Assembly: GCF_002257665.1 (NCBI RefSeq) | Contig: NZ_MQWB01000001.1 | Coordinates: forward strand, 2,004,756-2,044,213 | Reading direction: 5' to 3' | From: Rubricoccus marinus | GTDB lineage: Bacteria > Bacteroidota > Rhodothermia > Rhodothermales > Rubricoccaceae | Length of the DNA: 39,458 nucleotides | Shown here: in pieces, positions 8,947 through 32,757 of the stretch | How positions within the stretch are numbered: position 1 is the first letter of the stretch | How the letters are laid out: each line of letters starts with the position of its first letter | The notes under the pieces: generated by a model | Told to the model about the DNA's origin: nothing | The model's database searches: none | The model's input: the letters and a program-made list of their open reading frames with translations, nothing else | Position numbers and translations under genes: made by a program

Positions 8947-11900
8947 GTGCCCTTTCGAGCAGCCCACCCCCGCCTCGTGCGAGCGACTGACCGACCCGCC
9001 TCCTCTCCCCTGCGACACCTCGGCCTTCTAGGCTTGTTGGCAGCGGCAGGGTTCCTCGTTCTGCTTGTCCGCGCAGGCACCCTCGAGGCCGAGCCCGGCC
9101 GCGGCTTCTGGGCGCAGCCGCTGGCGCCAGAGGCCGTCCGCGCGGACACGGACACCGTCGTGGTCCAGCCCGGCCCCGTCCGCATCGACACGACCGACGC
9201 GGATTCGACGACGCGGGCGGAGTACCTCCTCCCCTCGTTGCCGCGCGACAACTACTACGCGGTCCCTGTCGAGCGCTTGGTGCCATCCTTGTTGGGCGGC
9301 TCGATCCGCGCGCGCCAGCAGCTCGTGGAGCTGGACTCTTCCCTTCTCCAGTATGAGGTCCGGGAAACCGTTGGGGGCCGCGATATCCGCACGCCCGTCC
9401 AGCTCTCGCTTCAGGAGTACCTCGCCGCTCAGCAGGGCGTCAACATCCAGGATGGCTTCCGCTCGCTCGCCGCGAGCCGCCTGCAACGCCAGCAGCGCCG
9501 CGCAGGCGTCGGGATCAACATCGACATTCCTGGCGGCAACCAGTCCGCCTTCCGGACCATTTTCGGCAAGAACGAGGTGGACCTCCGCGTGACGGGTAAC
9601 TCCACGCTGGACCTCGGCGTCGGCTACGACCAGAACGCCATCCAACAGGCGAGAACCGGCCAAGACGGAAGCTTTGCGCCTGACTTCGGGCAGGAGCTCA
9701 ACCTCAACGTAGCCGGCACCATCGGCGACAAGCTGCGGATCAACGTCAACTACGACACGCAGAGCCAGTTCGACTTCGAGAACCAGGTCTCCCTCGTCTA
9801 CACCGGCTACGAGGACGACATCGTGCAGAAGGTGGAGGCCGGCAACGTCTTCCTCCAGACGCCCTCCGAACTGATCCGCGGCGGGCAACGCTTGTTCGGG
9901 CTGCGGACGGACCTCCAGTTCGGCCCTCTTTCCATCACGGGTGTCGCTAGCCAGCAGGACGCGGAAAGCGATGCGGTGGTGATCGAAGGCGGCTCGCAGT
10001 CCACGCCCATCTCGCTCTCGCCTACGCGGTACGAGAACGACACCCACTTCTTCCTCGGCTTCGCGTTCTACAACTGGTGGAACGCAGCGCACCGGGACCC
10101 CAGCGTGCCCTCGCCGCCCCCGGGCTTTAGCCAGATCACCAACCTCGAGGTCTGGGTCCAGGACGCACAAGCGCAGAGCACGGTCAACACCAATGACCCC
10201 GTAATCCTCGGCGTCGGCCTCGTCGACCTCGGCGAGCCCGTGGGCGTGCTCGCCGGTGGCCGCGCCTACCTCGACGCCGTTGGCGAGGTGGCGCCGTTGC
10301 CGTCGCCAGAGGCCGACCAATACTCCCAGGCGCAGCTAGACTTTATCCGCACGCGGACGAGCGAGGTGAACTTCGAGGAGGACTACGGCCTCACCGTCGG
10401 CGAATCCGTCCAGGGGAAGTGGCGTCAGCTCCGGCCCGGAACGGACTTCACCCTTGACGAACGCCTCGGATGGATCTCCCTGACGGGCGCGCTCGGACCG
10501 GAGGACGCCCTCGCGGTGACGTATCAGTACCGCCGCGCCGACGGGACGTCCGTCACCATCGGTGACTTCGGCAACCACAGCACCGATACAAACCCAGCAA
10601 CGGGCGAGCGCTCGCGGCTCAAGCTCCTCCGTGGGCGCGCCACCAACGTCACTGAGGCCCCGTGGGACCTCACGATGCGCAACATCTACCGCGTCGGCGG
10701 CCGGTCCATCAACCCGCGGGACTTCACGCTGGACATCACCTACGAGCCACCGGGCAACACCGCGCAGTTCACGCTCCCCGGCATCCAGATCTCCGATGGG
10801 CTCACCATTCTCGCCGCGCTCGGCCTCGACCGCACCGCCGATGGCGGCATCCCCCGCCGTGACGACCGCTTTGACTTCCGCTCGGGCTACACCATCGACG
10901 CCCAGAACGGCCGCATCATCTTCCCCGTCCGCGAGCCCTTCGGCCGCTACATCGAGGGCCTCTTGCGCGATGGGCTCTACGTCAGCGGCGAAACGCTCAG
11001 CATCCAGATCGACGGGGGGTACGACGCCGTCGCGCAAGACCTCGTCTTCAACCGGCTGTACGAGCTGAAGCCAGCCGTCGCCGAGCGCGAGTTGAACAAG
11101 GTGCGTCGGTACAACATCGGCGGCGAGTACAAAAGCGCGTCTCAGTCCGTCTTCAACGTCGGCTTCGGCCTCGTCGAGGGCTCCGTTACAGTGACCTCTG
11201 GCGGGACGGCGCTCATTGAGGGCCAGGACTACGTCGTCAACGAGACCGCGGGAACCGTCGAGATCCGCAACCCGATCTATCTCGCCCCGGGGCAGCAGAT
11301 CCGCGTCGAGGTCGAAAAGAACAAGCTGTTCTCCATCGGCAGCAAAACCCTCGTCGGACTCCGCAGCGACTACCGCATCAGCGAGAACGCCGGCTTTGGC
11401 GCTACGTGGATGCGCCTCGCGGAGCGTCCCCTGAACGACAAATTCCGCATCGGCGAGGAAGCGCTCGAGAACACCATCTTTGGCGTCGATGGCGGCGTCA
11501 CGTTCGAGCCCCGGTGGGTCACGCGGGCGCTTGATGCGTTGCCCTTGATCCAGACGCGCGCGCCATCTTCCCTCGAGTTCCGCGGGGAGTACGCGCAGTT
11601 CTCCCCCGGCCACCCGGAGACGTTCGCCTTCCGCCAGGTGCAGCGGGACCTTGCCGACCTGGATCGCTCGCTTTCCGAGGACGAGTCGCGAGGCATCTCG
11701 TCAATCGACGACTTCGAGCAAGCCGAAACGGTCAACACCGCCCTGGAGCAGGCCTTCGGATGGCGGATCGCGGCTCCCCCTCGTGGCTCCGGTCCGATGA
11801 ACGGGGAAGGGACGGTCCCCTACGAGCGCGGAGTTACCCGCATCAACGACCCGCGCCTGGCGACAAACTGGAGAGGCCTGTTCGGCTGGTACTCCATTTC

Positions 11901-14900
11901 CAACCAGGGCTACGACCGGCTCACCGAGCAGCTCGGCGGGCTGCCTGTGGCCTCGCAGCGCGTCTACCCCCAGGACCTCTACGACCGGCAGTTCACGGCC
12001 GCTGAAGAGAGCCAGCCGCTGAACCTACTGGACGTCTACTTCGACCCCGCGCGCCGCGGACCCTACAACTACAACCGCGAGCTCGCCAGCACGTACGCCT
12101 CGGACCCGGCCTCGGCATGGGGCGGCATGATTCAGAGCATCGACGCCGCGTACTCGGACTTCGATGGCGCCAACACGATCGAGTCCATCGAGTTTCTCGT
12201 CGCGCCGCTGGGCGGGCGCGACGGGTCTGAGCCGATCAACCAGGGTGCGGTCCTCAACTTCGACCTCGGCATCCTGAACGAGGACACGCTCCCCAACGGC
12301 TCGCTCAACTCGGAGGACGGCATCTCTGAGTCCAACCCCGACGCCAACGAACTCGATGAGTGGAGCCGCCTGATCGATGGCATCTCGGAAGGCAACGTGG
12401 ACTTCTACGAGGACACGGGCCGTACAGAAGACCTCGGCATCGACGGTCTGGCCTCGCGCAGAGACCTCGTGGCCCCTGGCGGCACGCCCTACGCGTTCGC
12501 CGAAGCGGACTTGCCTGGCGTCGCTGAATTTCTCGATGCCCTTCCCGACGGCCCGGAGCGTCGGCGCGCCGAGCAGGACCCCGCCGGCGACGACTACCAC
12601 CACTTCCGTGAAACGTACTTCGACGACGGCAACTTCTTCGTGGGCCGCGCCACCGCGCAGGAACGCTACGCGCAGTACTTCTCCGGCAGCGAGCTCAACA
12701 ACGACGTCCCCCGCGGAAAAATCCTCCCCGACGAGGAAAAGGGCATCTCGCAGATCCCCTCTACGGAGGACATCGACGACAGCTTTACGGCCACGCGCCA
12801 GGCGGAGGAGCAGTTCTACCGCTACTCCCTCCCCCTCGATGAAGGCGGCCTCCGCAGCAGCCCGTTCTTTACCGGCAGCACCATCGAGACCAACGGCGCG
12901 ACGTGGTACCTGATTCGGATCCCGGTCCGAAGCGAGACCCGGCAGGACTTCGGCGGAAGCCTCGCCAACGTTCAGATGGCCCGGATGTGGACGACCGGGC
13001 ACCAGAAGCCCGTCACGCTCCGCTTCGCGACGCTAGAGCTCGTCGGCAGCCAGTGGCAGAAGTCCACCGACGTGGGCATCACCGAGGACGGGGCCTCTGG
13101 CGGGAGCGACCCCGAGCTCTTCATTGCGTCGGTCAACACAGACGAGAACCCGACCGAGTACCTGCCGCCGGTGAGCGCGTTGCGGCCGGTCAACCGGGAC
13201 ATCTCCGGCTCGGCCCGAGACGCGCGCGAGCAGTCCCTCGTGTTCCGCGTGGAGGATCTCGGCGAAGGCCAGTCGCGCGCGCTGTACAAACCGTTCTCCA
13301 CCAACCGGCTCGACCTCACGAAGTACTCCAACGTGCGGATGTTCTTGCACGGCGAGGGCTTCGAGGCCCGCGACGACGTGCGCGTCTTCCTGCGCCTTGG
13401 CGCGGACGAGACCGAGAACTACTACGAGATCGAGCAGCCGCTCTACCCGTCCTCTAGCGAGAACCTCCTGGAAGCCTTCGGCAACGGGGAGGAGTTCATC
13501 GACGCCACCCGGGCCGCGGACTACCTCTGGCAGACCAACGCCTGCCCGGGCGGAGACGACCCCGAAGGTGACGACCCGACCACGCGCGCGGACTGCTCCG
13601 ACGACCAGCGAGCCGACCTCAACTCGATCAACATCGTGCTGAGCGAGCTCAACAAGCTCAAGGTCTCCCGCGACGCCTCTGGCGTGGCCACCAACGTCCG
13701 CTACACCGAGGACCGGACGCCAGAGGGCGCCGCCCCCGGCGCGAGGCTCTCCATCATCGGGACGCCCTCCATCCAGTCCGTCTCCAACGTGGTGATCGGC
13801 GTGCGGAACGGCGACAACGGGGACCCCGTGCCTCTGGCGGAGGTCGAGGTGTGGTTCAACGAACTGCGCGTTTCCGGGTACGACGAAGGTGGAGGCGCGA
13901 GCGCGTTCCTCACCGCGCAGGCTCGCCTCGCCGACGTGGCCAACGCGACCGCCCGCGTCTCGCTCAGCCAGGACGGCTTCGGTGGCCTGAGCGCAGGCCT
14001 GGGAGATCGGGACTTCGTGGACCGCTTCGGCATCACGCTCTCCTCCACGTTCAACGCCCACAAGCTGCTCCCCGAGCGGTACGGGTGGAACGCCCCCGTC
14101 CAGGTCTCCTACACCGAGAACCAGACGACGCCCCGCTTCGACCCGACGAACAGCGACATCCGCATCGACGACCTCGCGGACCAGACGCTCGCCAACGAAA
14201 ACCTCCCCGAACCAGAGCGCCGCATCCAGGCCGACTCGATCCGGTCGGCGGCTCAGACCGTCTCGCGGCAGCGCACGCTCCGCATTCCGCTCAGCAAGAC
14301 GGGCAGCCGCTCGCCGTGGCTGAAGTACTCGCTGGACGCCCTCAACCTCTCGTACACGAACGCCGCGCAAGAGGCCCGCAGCCCGCGGCTCTCGGTCAGC
14401 AACTCCGACAACTGGCGCGTGGACGCGAGCTACCGGCTGACCGTACCGAAGCCGAAAACGGTCCGCCCCTTCTGGTTCACCTCTGGCGTGCCGCTGCTCG
14501 GCAGCGCGCTGGAAGGGCTGCGCATGAACCTCCTCCCGCGCTCGCTCTCGTTCTCCACGAACGCGGGCCGGACGGTCTCGGTCAGCCGCGAGAGGCCGCG
14601 GGCAAACGACCTGGACGAGCCGGAGATCATCAACGACTTCCTCTACCCGCGCCGCGTCACGCACGACTTCGGCCACACGCGGGCGTTCAACCTCCAGTAC
14701 GAGCTTTTCCCGTTCCTGACGACGACGTACGGCTCCAACTCCACGCAAAGCCTAGACCTCGCGGGCGTGGACGAGCGGTTCGCGATCCTCGCGAGAGACA
14801 CCTCGGGCTACTTCGGTGACCCGGGCCGCATCGAGCAGTTCGAGATCAGCCGCGCGGAGGCGTTGACGCCGGGCAGCGAGTTGTGGCAGCGCTTCGGCAT

Positions 14901-16914
14901 TACGCGTGCCTCGCAGTTGGACTCGCTCCAGATCCTGGGCGGCACGACGCCACAGCTCACGGTCCTCCCATGGGCCGAGGCCGTCGGTGCGACGCTCTCG
15001 GGCGACCGCCGCCTGCTCACCGACCGCTACGACCAGACCTTCTCTTCCACGTTCCGCATTTCGACGCGCAACGTGAAGTGGCTGGCCTGGATCCAGCCGC
15101 AGGCCATCGGCCTGTCCTCCTCGTACGCGTGGGACTTCCAGCCCATCACCGGGTTCGAAGACCAGACCATCGCGGGCGTGGGCAGCCAGTTGCAGATGCA
15201 GACCGGGCTCAAGCTGCGCCCCCGCGAGTTCTGGCGCCTCTTCCCCTTCTACCGCTCCCTGGAGGACGCGGATCGCAAAGCAAAGCAGGCCTCGGACCAG
15301 CGCCGCCGCGAGCGCGAGACGGCCCGCGAGGCCCGCCGCGCGGAACGCGAGCGAGAGCGTGAAGCCGCTCGCGCCGCCCGCGAGGCGGCAGCCGAGGCCG
15401 CAGCCGCTGGCGAAGCCGGCGGGGACGACACCGAGCCTCTGGCGCCAGAGGCCGCACCTTCTGGTCTGCCCGTACCGGCCGGCGCCCCCGCGCCCCCCGT
15501 GGGCGCGAGACCGACGGAGAACACCGTCGCGCCAGAGGCCGCCGGATCGGTCGCGCTGAATGACGAGGAGGACGCGGAGCCCCGCCGTCCGCTCATCAAC
15601 GTGGGCGGCATCGGGCGGCGGCTGTTCCTGGCCGTGACCGGCTTCGAGGACGTGCAGGTGAACTACCGCGGGGCGCTGAGCTCCACGGCCAACGGCATCG
15701 TCGGCGACGGGTTCAGCCTGCTCGCGGCGCTCACCGGCGACGCCCCGCCACTCGGTTACCGGCTGGGCTTGAACCGGCGCCTGCCGCTGGACTCCCGCCT
15801 CTCAGACCCCAACGTGACGCTCCAGCTCCAGGACGTGCTGGGCAACAGCCACGACTTGGACGGGCGGACCACGCTGCAGCTCTCGCAGAGCCTGCGCGTC
15901 TCGCTCAACGCGTCCACGAAGTGGGACTCCAACGACATCTACCCGCTGGAGCGCACGGCCGACGAGGTGATCGAGCGGGACCGCATCCGCACCGGCTCTA
16001 GCCAGTCCACCGTTCTCGCCCTCGGCCGGGACTACACGTCGCTGTTGAACCGCCACATCGAGCGCTTCCAGAACGACGTGGACGGCGCCTCTGGCGGAGG
16101 CCCGGTCGCCTCGGCCGTCGGCTCCGCCAGCGGCCTGGCGGAGGACTTCAACGCGACGTTTGCGAACGGGCTCGGTCGGTTCGGCCCGGATGGCCTCTTC
16201 GCGATCCCCATCCCGAGTTGGGAAGTCAACTGGACCGGGCTGAGCCGCTGGCCCCTGTTCGAGCGATTTACGCAGCAGGTCACGATCCAGCACGGCTACT
16301 TCGCGTCCAGCCAAACCACGTTCGAGTCCGTCGCCAATTCTGGGGAGCCTCAAACGCGCGACGTGGCCGGCGTGCTGCTGGTCGAACCGCAGACCGAGGT
16401 GGAGCCGCGCACGCTCGTCGTCAACGAACGCTTTCAGCCCCTGATCGGCGTCCGCGTCGGCTGGAAGGGTGGCCTGAGCACGGAGTTGACCTACAACCGC
16501 AGCCGGGTGCTGACGCTCCAGCCGCTCAACGCGTCGCTGACGCAGAAGAAGGTCAGCGACATCCAGGGCAACGTGACGTTTACAAAGACGGGCTTCCGGC
16601 TCCCCCTCTTCAACCGCCTGCGCAACACGGTCCGGTTTACGCTTACCGCGTCCCTCACGGACGACGTCACCGACAACCAGTTCATCCTCAACGACCTGGA
16701 GGACACCCTCAACGGGGACGGCGTGGAGGCCCGGTCCGGCGTGGCGTTTAAACGCGTGTCCATCTGGCCGCGCGTGGGCTACCAGATCTCGAACCGCGTC
16801 AACATGGACGTGTTCTTCCGCTACGAGCGGAGCATCAGCGAGAACAGCCGCGCCAGCCCGAGCATCGCGAGCTACGACGGCGGCGTTACGCTCCGCATCT
16901 CGTTCTCGAACTAA
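8947..16914 (+). CDS. sprA: SprA, type IX secretion system outer-membrane translocon
   Basis: A 2655-residue giant outer-membrane protein. SprA forms the 36-strand barrel through which type IX cargo leaves the cell, and it is needed for gliding where that occurs. Visible family features are an N-terminal membrane/signal segment (residues ~23-45), a conserved block with [10 protein letters not shown], a [10 protein letters not shown] segment, [19 protein letters not shown], and [20 protein letters not shown]. The barrel ends in R-I-S-F-S-N. It is somewhat longer than the usual ~2400 residues. A charged Arg/Glu/Ala coiled segment and a Pro/Ala-rich linker at about residues 2105-2215 interrupt the barrel. 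The start is GTG; no ATG gives a better signal. Motif density is low for its length. Other T9SS genes are not in the window. Confidence 0.95.
15435..15452. repeat. Perfect 18-bp iterated-motif palindrome inside sprA
   Basis: GCCTCTGGCGCCAGAGGC, the only perfect palindrome in a coding region of this window, read as PLAPEA. It falls in the low-complexity linker of SprA, where insertion would be tolerated. Confidence 0.9.
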
Positions 16915-26177: not shown

Positions 26178-27365
26178 TCACACGAGCCTCTGACGGACAA
26201 AGGCGCGGGCGCGGGCGTCGGCGTCGAGCAGCGCGTCCAGGCTCTCGCCAGAGGCGCCGCGAGCGTCGTCCATCGCGGCTTCGACGAGGCGCGGGATGTC
26301 GGGGAAACGGACGCGGCCGTCCAGAAACGCTTGCACTGCGACCTCGTCGGCGGCGTTGAGCGCGGCGGGGACGGCGCCGCCGGCGCGCATGGCCTCTTGC
26401 GCCAGAGGCAGCGCGGGAAAAGCGGATTCGTCGGGCGCGTGGAAGTCCAGCGAGCCCAGCGTGGCCCAGTCCAGGCGCGGGAACGGCGCGGGCCAGCGGT
26501 CTGGAAACGAGAGCGCGTACTGGATGGGCACCTTCATCGTGGGCACGCCGATCTGCGCCTTTGCTGAGCCGTCTACGAACTCCACGACGGAGTGCACGAT
26601 GGACTGCGGGTGCACAACCACGCCGACCTGCTCCGGCCGGAGGTCGTACAGCCAGCGCGCCTCGATCACCTCCAGGACCTTGTTCATCATCGTGGCCGAG
26701 TCCACCGTGATGCGCGCGCCCATGCTCCAGTTGGGGTGGTCCAGCGCTTCCTCGGGCGTGATGCTCGCAAACGTCTTCGGGTCGCGGTCTCGGAACGGCC
26801 CGCCAGAGGCCGTCAGGACGACGCGCTCGACGGCCTCTGGCGGCTCGCCGACCAGGCACTGGAACAGCGCCGAGTGCTCGCTATCGATGGGCAGCACGTG
26901 CGCGCCCGAGGCCTCGCAGGCGTCGCGCACAAGCGCGCCGGCGACGACGAGCGCCTCTTTCGTCGCAAGCGCCACGTCCACGCCAGCGCACAACGCCGCG
27001 AGCGTTGGCCGAAGGCCCGCCGCGCCGACGATAGCGGCCACGACGAGGTCGGCCTCTGGCGCCACGTCCACGATCGCCGCCTCGCCCGCGAGGACCTCGA
27101 TGCCGGTGCCCGCGAGGGCCTCCGCCAGAGGCGCATGGGCGGCTTCGTCCGCGATTACGACGCGCTCGGGCCTCACTTCGCGCGCCTGCTCCGCGAGCAG
27201 CTTCCAGTTGCGGCCCGCCGTGAGCGTCACGATCCGAACGGCCTCGGGGTGCAGCGCAGCCACCTCTAGGGTCTGCGTACCGATGGAGCCGGTAGAGCCG
27301 AGCACGGCGAGGCGGCGCGGGGCGCGGGGGTGGCGCGGGGCCGGGTGTCGGAGGTCGGGGATCAT
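26178..27365 (-). CDS. dxr: 1-deoxy-D-xylulose 5-phosphate reductoisomerase
   Basis: DXR makes 2-C-methyl-D-erythritol 4-phosphate, the committed step of the non-mevalonate isoprenoid pathway, which feeds carotenoids and quinones. The 395-residue product has the NADPH-binding LGSTGSIGTQTLE, A-L-A-T-K-E-A-L-V, the metal site P-I-D-S-E-H-S-A-L-F-Q-C-L, T-A-S-G-G-P-F, and the block HPNWSMGARITVDSATMMNK. The final domain has N-A-A-D-E-V-A-V. Length and motifs are normal. It carries about six motif copies. It is divergent from the TPR protein gene with a 106-bp gap. No other pathway genes are adjacent, but crtI, which depends on this pathway, lies 10 kb away. Confidence 0.96.
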   Translation of the reverse strand: MIPDLRHPAPRHPRAPRRLAVLGSTGSIGTQTLEVAALHPEAVRIVTLTAGRNWKLLAEQAREVRPERVVIADEAAHAPLAEALAGTGIEVLAGEAAIVDVAPEADLVVAAIVGAAGLRPTLAALCAGVDVALATKEALVVAGALVRDACEASGAHVLPIDSEHSALFQCLVGEPPEAVERVVLTASGGPFRDRDPKTFASITPEEALDHPNWSMGARITVDSATMMNKVLEVIEARWLYDLRPEQVGVVVHPQSIVHSVVEFVDGSAKAQIGVPTMKVPIQYALSFPDRWPAPFPRLDWATLGSLDFHAPDESAFPALPLAQEAMRAGGAVPAALNAADEVAVQAFLDGRVRFPDIPRLVEAAMDDARGASGESLDALLDADARARAFVRQRLV

Positions 27366-27471: not shown

Positions 27472-29382
27472 GTGCGCGCTCTCGTCCTCCTTCTGCTCCT
27501 CCTGCCTCTGGCGTCTGCCGCGCAGACGCCCGCTCCCCCGCTGCCGCCGGAGCCCGCCATGACGCCGCAGATCGGGGACAAGCCGATCCGCACGCCACGG
27601 GCCGAGCGGCTGCCCGACCTCCGCCAGAGGCTGGACCTCGCGCGACGGCGCCAGGAGGCAGGGCAGATCGACGAGGCCATCGCGCTGCTGGAGGATTTGT
27701 ACGCGGCCAACCCCGGGACGTCGGCCATCTGGACACTCTTGCTCGACGCGTACCGCGAAGGGCGCCGCTTTGATGACGCTCTCGCGCTGATCGAGCGCCG
27801 CGAGGCAGACGGCCTCCGCAGCCCGGGGCTTCTGGCGCAAAAAGGCGGCGTGCTGTACGCCGCCGGACGGCCGGACGACGCGATGGCGACCTGGGACGCG
27901 GCCGTCGCGCTCGCGCCAGAGGCGGAGCAATCCTACCGGCTGGTCTCGAACGCCATCTCCCAGGAGCGGCTCTACGCCGAAGCGGCGCAGGTTCTCCAGC
28001 AGGGGGCGGAGCGCTTGGGCAATTCCCTCTTGTTCCGCCTGGAACGCGCGCACCTTTTCGGGCTCGGCGGCGAGTACCAGACGGCGGCACGCCTCTACCT
28101 GGAGGTGCTGGCGGAGGACGGGACAGCCGCGCAGCCCATCCAGACTCAGCTCAACCGCCTGATCGAGTCCGCGGGCGCAGCCGAGGGCTTTGACGCCGCG
28201 ATCCAGGAAGCCGTCGCGAGCGACCCGTTTAACGCGGCCTTCCGCGAGATGGCCGCCTGGATCGCGCTCGCGCGCGAGGACTACGCCAGAGGCCTGGACG
28301 CGACGCGCGCCGCCGACCGCCTGGGCGCCGGCGACGGCCGTGCCGTGTTCCGCTTTGCCGAGGCCGCCCTCGCCGCTGGCGCCTACGACGAAGCCGACGC
28401 CGCGCTCGACGCCATCTTGGAGCGCTACACCAACGGCCCGCTCGTCGCCCCCGCCCTGCTCTACCGCGCCCGGCTCGCCGCCGCGCGCGCCGAGGCCTCT
28501 GGCGAGCGGCCCAGCACCGGCCTCGCCACGCCGCTCACCGACCGCGCCCGCGACGCCTTCGAGCAGTTCGTCGCCGATTATCCCGGTCACCCCGACACGC
28601 CAGAGGCGCTCCGGCGCTTGGCCGACCTCTACCTCGGCGCCTACAACGACCCCGACCGCGCCGAGGAGGCTTTGGAACGCCTCCTCACGTCCACGCGCGA
28701 TCAAGCCGTGCTGGGCCAGGCGCGGCTGGACCTCGCGAGCGTGGCGCTCCAGCGTGGCGACCTCTTCGAAGCCCGCGACCGCTTTGGCGCCGTCGAGGAC
28801 GCGATGCGGATCGGGCCTCTGGCTGAGCAAGCGCGCTACGAGCTCGCGATGATCGACTTCTACGAGGGCTTCCTGTTTTCCGCCCTCGCCCGCGCCGAAG
28901 CGATGGACGACAACACCGCCGCCGACGTCGCCAACGACGCCGTGTCCCTCCGCCTCACACTCGACGAGAACGCCGGGCCGGACTCCACGAACGCCGCGCT
29001 CCGGCAGTACGGGCGCGCCGCCTTGCTCCACCGCCGCGGCCTCCACGCCGACGCCCTGGTCACGCTGGACAGCCTCGCGGCCGAAGACCCCAGCCACCCC
29101 CTGGCGGACGAGGTCCTGATCCTCCGGGCCCATGCGCTTCGGGCCTCTGGCGACTTCAGCGGCGCGCTCGCCTCACTTGCCCGCATCCCGACCGAGCACC
29201 CGCGCTCTTACTTCCTCGACCGCGCGCTTTTTGCCAGCGCCGAGATCCGCGAGCGTGACCTCGACGACCCCGCCGGCGCCCTCGACGCCTACGGCCGGCT
29301 TCTCGACCTCTACCCCGGCTCCCTCCTCGCGCCCCGCGCTCGCGAACGCCTCCGCGCCCTGCGCGAGGCCGCCCGCACCTAG
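27472..29382 (+). CDS. Secreted tetratricopeptide-repeat (TPR) protein
   Basis: A 636-residue protein with a signal peptide (VRALVLLLLLLPLASAAQT, GTG start) followed by tandem TPR-like helical pairs over most of its length. Repeats are visible in R-R-R-Q-E-A-G-Q-I-D-E-A-I-A-L-L-E-D-L-Y-A-A-N-P-G, the F-D-D-A-L-A-L-I-E-R-R segment, Y-D-E-A-D-A-A-L-D-A-I-L-E-R-Y, H-P-D-T-P-E-A-L-R-R-L-A-D-L-Y and the C-terminal A-Y-G-R-L-L-D-L-Y-P-G-S. It probably works in the periplasm as a scaffold. The open frame extends far upstream, antisense to dxr, but that part has no signal and is rejected. The next gene starts 32 bp after the stop, so the two are probably cotranscribed. Confidence 0.85.
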   Translation: MRALVLLLLLLPLASAAQTPAPPLPPEPAMTPQIGDKPIRTPRAERLPDLRQRLDLARRRQEAGQIDEAIALLEDLYAANPGTSAIWTLLLDAYREGRRFDDALALIERREADGLRSPGLLAQKGGVLYAAGRPDDAMATWDAAVALAPEAEQSYRLVSNAISQERLYAEAAQVLQQGAERLGNSLLFRLERAHLFGLGGEYQTAARLYLEVLAEDGTAAQPIQTQLNRLIESAGAAEGFDAAIQEAVASDPFNAAFREMAAWIALAREDYARGLDATRAADRLGAGDGRAVFRFAEAALAAGAYDEADAALDAILERYTNGPLVAPALLYRARLAAARAEASGERPSTGLATPLTDRARDAFEQFVADYPGHPDTPEALRRLADLYLGAYNDPDRAEEALERLLTSTRDQAVLGQARLDLASVALQRGDLFEARDRFGAVEDAMRIGPLAEQARYELAMIDFYEGFLFSALARAEAMDDNTAADVANDAVSLRLTLDENAGPDSTNAALRQYGRAALLHRRGLHADALVTLDSLAAEDPSHPLADEVLILRAHALRASGDFSGALASLARIPTEHPRSYFLDRALFASAEIRERDLDDPAGALDAYGRLLDLYPGSLLAPRARERLRALREAART

Positions 29383-29399
29383 CCTCTCGCGCCAGAGGC
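29382..29399. repeat. Near-perfect iterated-motif palindrome (one change) after the TPR gene
   Basis: GCCTCTCGCGCCAGAGGC differs from the perfect form at one centre base. It starts on the G of the TAG stop codon of the TPR protein gene. Confidence 0.75.
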
Positions 29400-29414
29400 C
29401 CCGCCGCCGTCCCC

Positions 29415-30671
29415 ATGCGTATCCGCTCCCTCCTCCTCGCCCTCGTGCTCGCCTCTGGCGTCAGCGCGGCGCCAGCGGCCCAGGACCTCCTCATCCCGAT
29501 GGATGAGAGCCAGTCCGACCACCTCAAGGCTTACGGCGCCGTCTACTGGGCCCTCGCCGACGGGCTCGGTGTGGACTGGCTGCTCAACTACCGCGGCGGC
29601 GCCTTTCTCGCGCCCGACACGCCCGGCATGCGCGACGAGCTTCGCGCCAGAGGCGTGAGCTACAGCGCGGCCTCTGGCGCCGAAATCACCGCCGAGGTGG
29701 AGACGCCAGCGGCCAACACGTCCATCGTGCGGCTGGAGAAGGCGCCCAAGATCGCGGTCTACGCGCCGGGCCAAACGTTGCCCTGGGACGATGCCGTGTT
29801 GCTCGCCCTCACCTACGCCGAAGTCCCCTACGAGCAGATCTACGACGACGAGATCCTGGACGGGAAGCTGGGCGACTACGACTGGCTCCACCTCCACCAC
29901 GAGGACTTTACGGGCCAGTACGGCAAGTTCTACTCCGCATATCGGGGCCAGCCGTGGTACCAACAGCAGCAGCGCGAGGCCGAGGCCAGCGCGCGGCAGC
30001 ACGGCCACCAGAAGGTGAGTCAGCTCAAGTTGGAGATCGTCCAGACCATTCGCGCCTACGTCGCCGAGGGCGGCTTCTTGTTCGCGATGTGCTCCGGGAC
30101 GGACACCTTCGACATCGCGCTCTCCGCCCACGCGACCGACATCGTGCCGGCGCAGATGGACGGCGACGGCGTGGCCTCTGGCGCCGAGCAGGCGCTGGAC
30201 TTCAGCGAAACCATCGCGTTCCAAGACTTCCGCCCCTCCTTCAACCCGATGGAGTACGAGCACTCCGACCTGGACGCCCCGCCACCGCAGGCGCTACGCA
30301 ACCCGCTCACGGACTACTTCACCCTTTTCGAGTTCTCCGCGCGGTACGACCCGGTCCCGTCCATGCTCACGCAGAACCACGTGGCCAGCGTGCGTGGGTT
30401 TATGGGCCAGACGACGGCCTACCGCGCCGACGCGCTCAAGCCCGGCATCGTCGTCCTCGCCGAGCACCCGACCGGGACCGTCCGCTACCTCTACGGCCCC
30501 GTCGGGCGTGGCTTCTTCGCCTTCTACGCCGGGCACGACCCCGAGGACTACCAGCACATGGTCGGCGACCCGCCGACGGATCTCGCGCTCTACCCGGATT
30601 CCCCGGGGTACCGCCTGATCCTCAACAACGTGCTCTTCCCCGCCGCGAAGAAGCAGCCGCAGAAGACCTGA
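29415..30671 (+). CDS. Secreted protein of the Bacteroidota family often labelled asparagine synthetase B
   Basis: A 418-residue protein with a signal peptide (MRIRSLLLALVLASGVSAAPA). The mature start DLLIPMDESQSDHLKAYG and W-L-L-N-Y-R-G-G-A-F-L match, from memory, a Bacteroidota family carrying the name asparagine synthetase B. There is no N-terminal Cys nucleophile and no ATP-pyrophosphatase SGGxDS motif, so that name is not supported. A segment A-E-G-G-F-L-F-A-M-C-S-G-T-D-T-F-D looks like the nucleophile elbow of class I glutamine-amidotransferase-like folds. The C-terminus has Y-G-P-V-G-R-G-F-F-A-F-Y-A-G-H-D-P-E-D. It follows the TPR gene by 32 bp and probably acts in the periplasm or envelope. 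Function unknown. Confidence 0.75.
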   Translation: MRIRSLLLALVLASGVSAAPAAQDLLIPMDESQSDHLKAYGAVYWALADGLGVDWLLNYRGGAFLAPDTPGMRDELRARGVSYSAASGAEITAEVETPAANTSIVRLEKAPKIAVYAPGQTLPWDDAVLLALTYAEVPYEQIYDDEILDGKLGDYDWLHLHHEDFTGQYGKFYSAYRGQPWYQQQQREAEASARQHGHQKVSQLKLEIVQTIRAYVAEGGFLFAMCSGTDTFDIALSAHATDIVPAQMDGDGVASGAEQALDFSETIAFQDFRPSFNPMEYEHSDLDAPPPQALRNPLTDYFTLFEFSARYDPVPSMLTQNHVASVRGFMGQTTAYRADALKPGIVVLAEHPTGTVRYLYGPVGRGFFAFYAGHDPEDYQHMVGDPPTDLALYPDSPGYRLILNNVLFPAAKKQPQKT

Positions 30672-30689: not shown

Positions 30690-30707
30690 GCCTCTGGCGC
30701 CAGAGGC
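30690..30707. repeat. Perfect 18-bp iterated-motif palindrome after the 29415 gene
   Basis: GCCTCTGGCGCCAGAGGC lies 18 bp after the stop. About 25 bp further on, CGCCTCGTCAGAGGCG (30731-30746) looks like a decayed copy that has lost the centre. Confidence 0.92.
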
Positions 30708-30873: not shown

Positions 30874-32079
30874 ATGTATCGCCTTTCAGTACCCGTGCTT
30901 GCGCTCGCTCTCGCCTTCTCCGCTTGTGACTCTGGCGTCATCGAGAGCCCACCTGAGACACCGCCGGCTCCAGCGCTCCCATCGGTGCCGATGTCTAGCA
31001 GAGCAGGTCTGAGCCCTCGGTCATTCAACCTGAGCCTGTCGAACCAGGGCTATCTCAGCCAGACATTCGGCAGCTCAGACTCTACTGCTGTGAATGCCCT
31101 CTTCAACGGCAACCTGTGGGTATCGGGCCAACAGGGCGGGACGCTTCGTGTCGCCGCTCGCACGGACCTCTCCAACTTTACCAACGTCCCCTGTGCGGAC
31201 GCCCCGAGCGGCGTGTTCTCCGTTGACAGTGACTCTGCTTACACGGAGGAGGGATGGCCTAGCGCTGTTGGAGCCCCTGTGGACGCGGAGGGAAAGCCTC
31301 GCGCCTATGGCGACCAAATGGCGTGGACCACCTATTGCCAATCCGCCAACGGGTCGATCCTGAACCAGCCGTTTACGGACCTCCGCATCAACGCGGCCGT
31401 TTTCGGGCACGACCAGTACTCGAACGTGGTGTTCATCCGGTTCGAATTGCGTAACGAGAGCGCCTCGGCCATCAGTGATGCCTACGTCGGGTTTTGGACC
31501 GACCCTGACCTCGAAACTGACGTGGCTCGGAATCTCGTGGGTGTAGACCTCGAAGAGCGGCTCGCGTACATCTACGCGGCCCCCGACGTCAGCGACCGCG
31601 CCCTCACGGCAGGGTCTGTCATCTTGGAAACCCCAGCCGACGCGCCTCTGGCGGCGCACCGGATTGTCACCAAGAACAGCCTGAGAGAGACGTACGGAGA
31701 GAACGGTCTCGGCTCCGCTGCTGCTTACGACATGGCCCTGCGCGGTCTCGACAACGCCGGCAACCCCATGGTGGACCCGACGACGAATCAGGCGTCCCCG
31801 TTTGCGTTCACAGGCAACCCGGTGCTCGGCACCGGCTGGCTAGATGGATATCTCTTCTGCGCGGAGAATTGCGAGGGGCAGGCGCAGCAGGGCCGAGAGG
31901 CGCGCCAGCTCATTTCAGCGGGCTCGTTCACCATCGGTGCCGGGGAGACGGAGGTCTTCACCCTCGCGTACGTTGTCCAGACGGGCTCTTCCTTTGAGGA
32001 CTCCCTCGCACAACTGCGCGCGCTGTCCTCTACCCTTCGCGGGGCTCCTGACCTCTGGCGCTTCGTCTCCCAGAGCTAA
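30874..32079 (+). CDS. Large lipoprotein of unknown function, motif-poor
   Basis: A 401-residue lipoprotein: signal MYRLSVPVLALALAFSAC with the lipid-anchored Cys at residue 18, a Pro-rich spacer (E-S-P-P-E-T-P-P-A-P), then a beta-rich domain. The domain has N-A-L-F-N-G-N-L-W-V-S-G, V-F-I-R-F-E-L-R-N-E-S and Y-V-G-F-W-T-D-P-D-L segments, as in surface proteins that record a product's fold with many Asn and Ser residues. Codon choice and base composition are visibly less GC-biased than its neighbours. Only one iterated-motif copy lies inside the gene, plus one near its end, against five or more expected from neighbours of this size. This suggests recent arrival or different constraint. I do not recognise the family. 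Confidence 0.78.
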   Translation: MYRLSVPVLALALAFSACDSGVIESPPETPPAPALPSVPMSSRAGLSPRSFNLSLSNQGYLSQTFGSSDSTAVNALFNGNLWVSGQQGGTLRVAARTDLSNFTNVPCADAPSGVFSVDSDSAYTEEGWPSAVGAPVDAEGKPRAYGDQMAWTTYCQSANGSILNQPFTDLRINAAVFGHDQYSNVVFIRFELRNESASAISDAYVGFWTDPDLETDVARNLVGVDLEERLAYIYAAPDVSDRALTAGSVILETPADAPLAAHRIVTKNSLRETYGENGLGSAAAYDMALRGLDNAGNPMVDPTTNQASPFAFTGNPVLGTGWLDGYLFCAENCEGQAQQGREARQLISAGSFTIGAGETEVFTLAYVVQTGSSFEDSLAQLRALSSTLRGAPDLWRFVSQS

Positions 32080-32229: not shown

Positions 32230-32757
32230 GTGATTACCAAAGCGCCAGAGGCCAGCCGCACCCGCATGAACGAGCTGGTGCTCCCCAACGACACCAACAC
32301 GCTCGGCAATCTCATGGGCGGGCGGCTGCTCCACTTTATGGACGTGGCCGCAGGCATCTCGGCCATGCGCCACTCCAACCGTACCTGCGTGACGGCGAGC
32401 GTGGACAACGTGGACTTCCGCAGCGCGATCAAGCTGGGCGAGGTGGTCCTCATCGAGGCCGTCGTCAACCGGGCGTTTACCACGTCGATGGAGGTGGAGA
32501 TCGACGTGTGGGCCGAGGACACCACGACGGGCACGCGGCGCAAGTGCAACCGGGCCTTTTTCACGTTCGTGGCCGTCGACCAGAGCGGGCGGCCCATCCC
32601 GGTCGTGCAGTTGGAGCCGGAGACCGACGAGGAGCGCGAGCGCTACGAGGCCGCCGAGCGCCGCCGCGAGCTCCGCCTCATCCTCTCCGGCCGCCTCTCC
32701 CTCTCCGACGCCGACAACCTCCGGGACCACCTCGCCGAGGTCGCCGCGGACGGCTGA
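32230..32757 (+). CDS. Acyl-CoA thioesterase, hotdog fold
   Basis: A 175-residue cytosolic thioesterase that cleaves acyl-CoA esters. The hotdog domain begins at R-M-N-E-L-V-L-P-N-D-T-N-T-L-G-N-L-M-G-G-R-L-L-H-F-M-D, followed by the central helix A-A-G-I-S-A-M-R-H and strands T-A-S-V-D-N-V-D-F and V-E-I-D-V-W-A-E-D. The ending N-R-A-F-F-T-F-V-A-V-D is typical of the YciA/BACH type. The start is GTG at 32230; an ATG at 32266 just before N-E-L-V-L would also give a complete domain. Two motif hairpins and a -7-like element lie upstream. A Glu/Arg-rich helix forms the C-terminus. Confidence 0.9.
   Translation: MITKAPEASRTRMNELVLPNDTNTLGNLMGGRLLHFMDVAAGISAMRHSNRTCVTASVDNVDFRSAIKLGEVVLIEAVVNRAFTTSMEVEIDVWAEDTTTGTRRKCNRAFFTFVAVDQSGRPIPVVQLEPETDEERERYEAAERRRELRLILSGRLSLSDADNLRDHLAEVAADG

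Follow-up and report, generated by a model that had tools for sequence, protein, structure and literature searches.

The window analysed here is a stretch of 39,458 nucleotides from Rubricoccus marinus (contig NZ_MQWB01000001.1, positions 2,004,756 to 2,044,213 of the forward strand), and this work concerns two neighbouring genes within it, one for a tetratricopeptide repeat (TPR) protein and one for a protein of 418 residues that we call P1. The features of this pair, in window coordinates, are the following.

27472 to 29382, forward strand: TPR gene, 636 codons from a GTG start, product (27472 to 29379) apparently exported (open reading frame (ORF), TPR profiles).
29415 to 30671, forward strand: P1, apparently exported protein of 418 residues with a predicted class I glutamine amidotransferase (GATase)/ThuA-like domain (ORF, profile, alignment, structure model).
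29475 to 29738, forward strand: N-terminal alpha/beta domain of P1, residues 21–108 (model and structure comparison).
29739 to 30656, forward strand: class I GATase/ThuA-like domain of P1, residues 109–414 (AlphaFold2 and PDB comparison).
29889 to 29906, forward strand: HLHHED, residues 159–164, at the end of strand 157–160 (conservation and model).
30090 to 30092, forward strand: Cys226, at the nucleophile-elbow position between strand 221–225 and helix 227–237 (identical in 168 of 168 sequences, and model).
30531 to 30551, forward strand: GHDPEDY, residues 373–379, right after strand 366–371, with the candidate catalytic His374 and Asp/Glu.
30633 to 30668, forward strand: C-terminal tail of P1, LFPAAKKQPQKT, ending in -KT at a common column in nearly all relatives.

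The stop of the TPR gene (29382) and the start of P1 are 32 bp apart, the distance already given in a preliminary description made from the letters of this DNA, which had also ascribed a signal peptide to P1 and secretion to the TPR protein. Inspection by eye agrees with both ascriptions: the N-terminus of P1 (MRIRSLLLALVLASGVSA...) is signal-peptide-like, and that of the TPR product contains a hydrophobic, signal-peptide-like stretch. A regular expression found no lipobox in 146 sequences of the P1 family. P1 is probably exported, as judged from its N-terminus, and the export signal would suggest a function in the envelope or in secretion. Its own genome (4.43 Mb) holds one match to P1, and dxr (26178–27365) is divergent from the TPR gene.

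P1 appears to belong to a family that is enzyme-like, very strongly conserved and so far uncatalogued. This family may be the one labelled 'asparagine synthetase B' in databases, and with this proviso it is plausible that the family has been misnamed. AsnB carries an N-terminal class II amidotransferase domain with a Cys directly after the Met; P1 begins MRIRS, so it has no Cys there. The preliminary description had noted that P1 lacks the synthetase motifs, and rightly: neither the Asn_synthase (ATP-pyrophosphatase) domain nor a class II GATase profile matched P1 at E≤1 in Pfam or NCBIfam, or appeared in the lists for 40 members of the family. Genuine AsnB proteins of Bacteroidota can carry this name too, an example being a 605-residue predicted AsnB of Tannerella forsythia (PMC6120980).

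In Pfam, P1 gave a single line at E≤1, DUF4159 (PF13709; residues 196–246), below its cut-off (14.5 vs 25.9 bits), and NCBIfam gave none at that threshold. Scanned singly, the 40 members produced scattered lines at chance level (best E 0.022 in Pfam and 0.010 in NCBIfam), DUF4159 being present for two of them. DUF4159 itself is matched above cut-off in each of 25 genomes searched, that of P1 included, and in the window's own genome the match lies elsewhere than P1. Neither the GATase (PF00117) nor the ThuA (PF06283) family of Pfam matched P1 or appeared in the list for the 40 members. Comparison of PDB sequences with P1 gave nothing significant (one line, E 1.4) and with the family profile nothing at E≤10, and no match to P1 was found by tblastn in a collection of annotated plasmids. 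No study of the family turned up in the literature searched, most subscription papers being outside that search.

Structure prediction and a fold search had been proposed as the check on a GATase-like fold with a Cys elbow, both of which had only been suspected, and they point to both. The AlphaFold2 model, computed on a 40-row alignment (mean predicted local distance difference test (pLDDT) 86.5, predicted template modelling score 0.86), places residues ~109–414 in the class I GATase/ThuA-like fold by Foldseek and VIA-align comparison. Foldseek matches in the PDB were GATase1-like and ThuA-like proteins, gamma-glutamyl hydrolases (PuuD, SpuA) and GH42 enzymes carrying such a domain, with E values of 1e-5 to 1e-3 for lin1909, PuuD and SpuA, and VIA-align gave Z≥8 for 328 of the top 1000 Foldseek chains. 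The best matches included the ThuA-like 1t0b (Z 12.4, 191 residues aligned at 3.4 Å, model residues 109–413), an N-acetyl-(R)-beta-phenylalanine acylase (8i5a; Z 12.4, 209 residues at 3.9 Å) and the GATase1-like 2gk3, 3soz and 3rht. In the model Cys226 occupies the junction of strand and helix that is the elbow position of class I GATases, and the three conserved stretches (HLHHED, Cys226 and GHDPEDY) all lie at strand ends. In such alpha/beta folds the strand ends usually point into a common active site, which makes a Cys-His-acid centre, with a loop rich in His and acidic residues, a natural inference. The N-terminal domain, folded alone, reached a pLDDT of 94.1, and its best PDB match was the C-terminal part of UreE (Z 7.9 over 72 residues; Foldseek E 0.12). 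This match is weak, within the range of common arrangements, and is not taken to suggest a metallochaperone role.

Conservation was assessed on two sets. A scan of genome contigs yielded 349 relatives of P1, of which the best 80 were kept, and the 40-row alignment consists of P1 and 39 sequences chosen from these loci, with a mean column identity of 69%. The larger set holds 168 sequences, namely P1, 144 others from Bacteroidota and 23 from a second phylum, that of the genome behind locus L028, here called Zixiibacteriota; matches of ≤450 bits, frames of ≤390 residues and duplicates were excluded. Ten residues are identical throughout the larger set (H159, H161, H162, E163, D164, C226, D233, H374, D375 and P376), followed by E377 (167/168) and by D378 and Y379 (165/168 each), while L160 is kept in at least 90% of the 40 aligned members. 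The C-terminus is comparably fixed: the stretch from LFP to the end measures exactly twelve residues in 145 of 146 sequences, and the protein ends in -KT in 144 of the 146 (the exceptions being L139, which ends in -QRT, and L137, where the frame reads on) and in 166 of the 168, including 23/23 from Zixiibacteriota. The tail mostly follows the pattern K/R-K-K-x-Q/R/K-K-T-COOH, and its residues 415–418 have a pLDDT below 50 in the model. Divergent second copies of P1 occur at L233, L234 and L235 (genomes G190, G249 and G186); HLHHED, the elbow Cys and GHDPE are kept in them.

The spread of the family was searched within two phyla. In Bacteroidota, the phylum of the window, 207 of the 296 genomes sampled carry it (122 of 139 genera), and in Zixiibacteriota 88 of 98 genomes do, usually with one match per genome. 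Among 20 absences listed for Bacteroidota 14 belong to family f23 (f-numbers are family labels), and there are 69 further absences. A quick tree built from 118 rows separates each of three groups by a single branch: the window's class, Rhodothermia (support 98), the rest of Bacteroidota (67) and Zixiibacteriota (99). Vertical descent would give this pattern. P1 represents a new, unusually conserved family within a known fold superfamily. Widespread, kept at 51–57% identity between P1 and the Zixiibacteriota sequences of the larger set and unmatched in the Pfam and NCBIfam copies searched, it points to an evident gap in what is known of the Bacteroidota envelope.

The TPR product scored above the Pfam cut-offs of TPR_19, TPR_16, TPR_6 and TPR_14 (67.8 bits vs a cut-off of 25 for PF14559, 58.7 vs 32.7 for PF13432 and 57.9 vs 26.3 for PF13174), and a match to YfiO (PF13525; 34.6 vs 25) was read as a general TPR match. 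For none of the 16 NCBIfam families listed did it reach the curated cut-off, and an identity as BamD (71.2 vs 81.4 bits) or YbgF (64.3 vs 90.1) was rejected; it has the TPR architecture common to proteins of the BamD, YbgF and PrsT type and is not assignable to any one of them.

The preliminary description had taken the two genes for a likely functional pair, and how far they are linked elsewhere depends on the lineage. A phmmer search with the window's TPR protein found a TPR gene adjoining P1 in 25/25 loci of or near the window's order, and a profile made from this protein and those 25 found one beside P1 in 15/15 loci from other orders of the class. In total 40/40 loci of the class are linked, with all the TPR genes upstream on the same strand, although L003/L119 and L005/L128 look like duplicates (identical scores and lengths), leaving ~38 independent loci. 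In some loci of the class the genes flanking the pair are Maf and MazG (neighbouring genes were named throughout by reading their sequences, not by profile search). Beyond the class, the profile detected a same-strand upstream TPR gene in 22/46 loci of other families of the phylum: f17 (2/2, weak at 94–103 bits), f19 (3/4, one of them 3.4 kb away), f22 (5/6), f25 (3/3), f40 (4/4), f41 (1/2), f42 (2/2), f46 (1/1) and f49 (1/1). The gap between the two genes is ~1.2–1.4 kb in f22, f40 and f46, and the gene within it was read as ClpX in the three loci examined (two of f40, one of f22). At the other extreme, the two frames overlap by 4 bp in thirteen loci, taking the starts of the longest ORFs.

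No TPR gene was seen near P1 in the loci read of f20, f27, f28, f36, f37, f38, f39, f48 and f50, and profile searches detected none in 13 loci of f26 and 20 of Zixiibacteriota. Likewise, 74 of the 75 loci L007–L081 had no linked TPR gene, several of their contigs ending near P1, where none could be seen; L051 gave a weak and distant match on the opposite strand. The neighbourhood comparison proposed for Bacteroidota bore out linkage in several lineages but not in all: the genes are paired in the window's class and in parts of other families, not as a general rule. The linkage is real but lineage-limited, and as the unlinked f26, Zixiibacteriota and further loci still carry P1, a linked TPR gene is not required. 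The 61 TPR proteins compared share 27% identity on average and 36 P1 sequences taken at these loci 66%, a difference that would fit a scaffold next to an enzyme under constraint. A pairing of an acidic TPR protein with the basic tail of P1 found no consistent support, the charge per 100 residues varying between -6.3 and +1.6 among the 61 proteins.

We tentatively favour, with a confidence somewhat short of even, the reading of P1 as an exported Cys-dependent hydrolase or amidase-type enzyme of a new family, served by a TPR scaffold in some lineages. The loops of HLHHED, Cys226 and GHDPEDY would form a single active site, with Cys226, His374 and Glu377/Asp378 as the catalytic triad, and the HLHHED loop would assist or, equally, bind a metal that assists. 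The enzyme would work outside the cytoplasm, hydrolysing or transferring an amide, a gamma-glutamyl or an acyl group. Where the genes are linked, the TPR protein would probably be co-transcribed with P1 and act as its periplasmic scaffold, possibly holding the fixed C-terminal tail. The fold, the invariant residues, the fixed C-terminus and the TPR neighbour are all concrete experimental targets.

P1 shares with the class I GATases and gamma-glutamyl hydrolases (PF00117; PuuD, SpuA) the predicted fold and the elbow Cys, and may share a His with acidic residues after a late strand, but differs by the lack of a PF00117 match, by the His-acid motif HDPE and by its apparent export. To ThuA-like proteins (PF06283; 1t0b, 4pxy, 4jqs and 4e5v) its main domain is related by the same overall fold (Z 11.2–12.4), and a statistically insignificant profile alignment sets C226 opposite a ThuA His, while the lack of a PF06283 match, the extra N-terminal domain, the Cys elbow, HLHHED, GHDPEDY and the fixed tail set it apart.

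Several points weigh against a Cys-dependent enzyme. In class I GATases a catalytic His-x-Glu (HPE) follows a late strand, and the H-D-P-E spacing after strand 366–371 is unlike it. The closeness of C226, H374 and HLHHED would follow from the order of strands in the model and not from coordinates, and L233, L234 and L235 are without D378 and Y379, the DY after GHDPE. In an hhalign panel of 41 alignments (ThuA, GATase, DUF4159, 35 decoys from neighbouring genes and three reversed controls) ThuA ranked 8th and GATase 39th, which lends no support beyond that of decoys; DUF4159 ranked first, but across just 14 columns, and the reversed controls came 31st, 35th and 41st. With ThuA and GATase at decoy level, the superfamily placement of P1 comes from the fold only. 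The neighbours of P1 outside the TPR lineages (DnaB, AccA, a porin-like protein, LpxK, purine nucleoside phosphorylase, RarA and others) are mostly housekeeping genes and point to no pathway. Finally, similar folds occur without such a Cys mechanism, an example being dimethylformamidase, where an Fe site is carried on a ThuA-like core (PMC7686228).

This last comparison leads to a different reading, which we regard as unlikely though worth keeping in view, in which P1 is a metal-centred hydrolase whose H159-x-H161-H162-E163-D164 loop binds Fe or Zn in the manner of dimethylformamidase, Cys226 being structural, redox-active or a ligand. Five invariant potential ligands do lie within this one loop, and the acylase structures 8i5a, 8i59 and 8huy, which we take to be kin to dimethylformamidase, match the model with Z 12.0–12.4 (8i5a and 8huy through a GATase/ThuA-like core like that of P1). 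Dimethylformamidase itself has such a core in its large subunit by description, with a mononuclear Fe site in the ThuA-like core of domain III, but the ligands there are two Tyr and one carboxylate, not HLHHED with a Cys (PMC7686228); both enzymes are moreover larger and multidomain. A weak hint comes from a regulator mutant of Bizionia argentinensis in which 'an asparagine synthetase B' falls together with iron-uptake genes (PMC9478572). This protein may or may not belong to the P1 family, its label being ambiguous in view of the 605-residue predicted AsnB of Tannerella. Against a metal centre also stands Cys226, equally invariant and in the canonical nucleophile position.

Somewhat less probable still, in our judgement, is that P1 is a non-catalytic exported binding protein that retains the fold and has a TPR partner in some lineages. 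Chain G of 8aa2, from a levan utilisation machinery, matches the model with Z 12.2 over 212 residues, and both the fixed C-terminus and the linkage to a TPR gene point to the formation of a complex, but polar residues of catalytic type that are invariant in 168/168 after three strands go, we judge, beyond the usual demands of binding.

We also think it quite improbable that P1 assists type IX secretion or gliding as an accessory factor, in spite of a co-occurrence with SprA. SprA_N is found in all of the 207 P1-positive genomes among the 296 (227 are SprA_N-positive), both are absent from 69, and the SprA-less genome G002, from the otherwise P1-positive family f18, also has no P1, even at E≤10. 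However, 19 of the 20 SprA-negative genomes listed belong to f23 (there are 49 more), so that few independent events are represented; 20 SprA-positive genomes have no P1; in Zixiibacteriota SprA_N is detected in 83 of the 88 P1-positive genomes and unmatched in the other five; and no gene of type IX secretion was recognised among the neighbours read. For the most part the co-occurrence follows from the wide spread of both as core genes, and it is weak evidence for a role in secretion because independent losses are few. A genuine asparagine synthetase B, finally, for which the label alone would speak, is refuted by the profile search, P1 having a signal-like N-terminus in place of the N-terminal Cys and no room for both synthetase domains.

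The reading of P1 as an exported Cys-dependent enzyme can be carried further, by analogy and at much longer odds. TPR receptors read C-terminal peptides elsewhere, as in the PTS1/Pex5 system. P1 could similarly belong to an unrecognised family of exported core enzymes shared by Bacteroidota and Zixiibacteriota, and perhaps by all of the FCB group. The fixed tail of its members would serve as a docking tag that a dedicated TPR protein recognises in the periplasm, the pair constituting an envelope amidase module that became unlinked or lost in some lineages. We offer this as a speculation and think it improbable.

Downstream of P1, and before a 4HBT thioesterase gene (32230–32757), lies a forward-strand gene (30874–32079) for a protein of 401 residues that is lipoprotein-like by eye and has no Pfam family at E≤1. 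At L004 and L005 a gene of 180 residues similar to its product is found directly 3' of P1. Elsewhere in the window, a single open frame of 2655 codons extends over positions 8947–16914 of the forward strand.

The window is also rich in a 9-mer, GCCTCTGGC, with 124 occurrences vs ~1 expected (e.g. 29451–29459 and 30174–30182, and an inverted pair at 30690–30707). Genome-wide it occurs 14,385 times (7161 + 7224), compared with 195 for the reversed pattern, and a genome of the same genus has 136. An 18-bp palindrome formed by two copies back to back is present at 873 sites in the genome, at none in the same-genus genome and at four in one other of the 16 genomes searched. The 9-mer looks like a species-specific element resembling HIP1 or a DNA uptake sequence, and the window contains eight of the palindromes, several of them just past the ends of ORFs.

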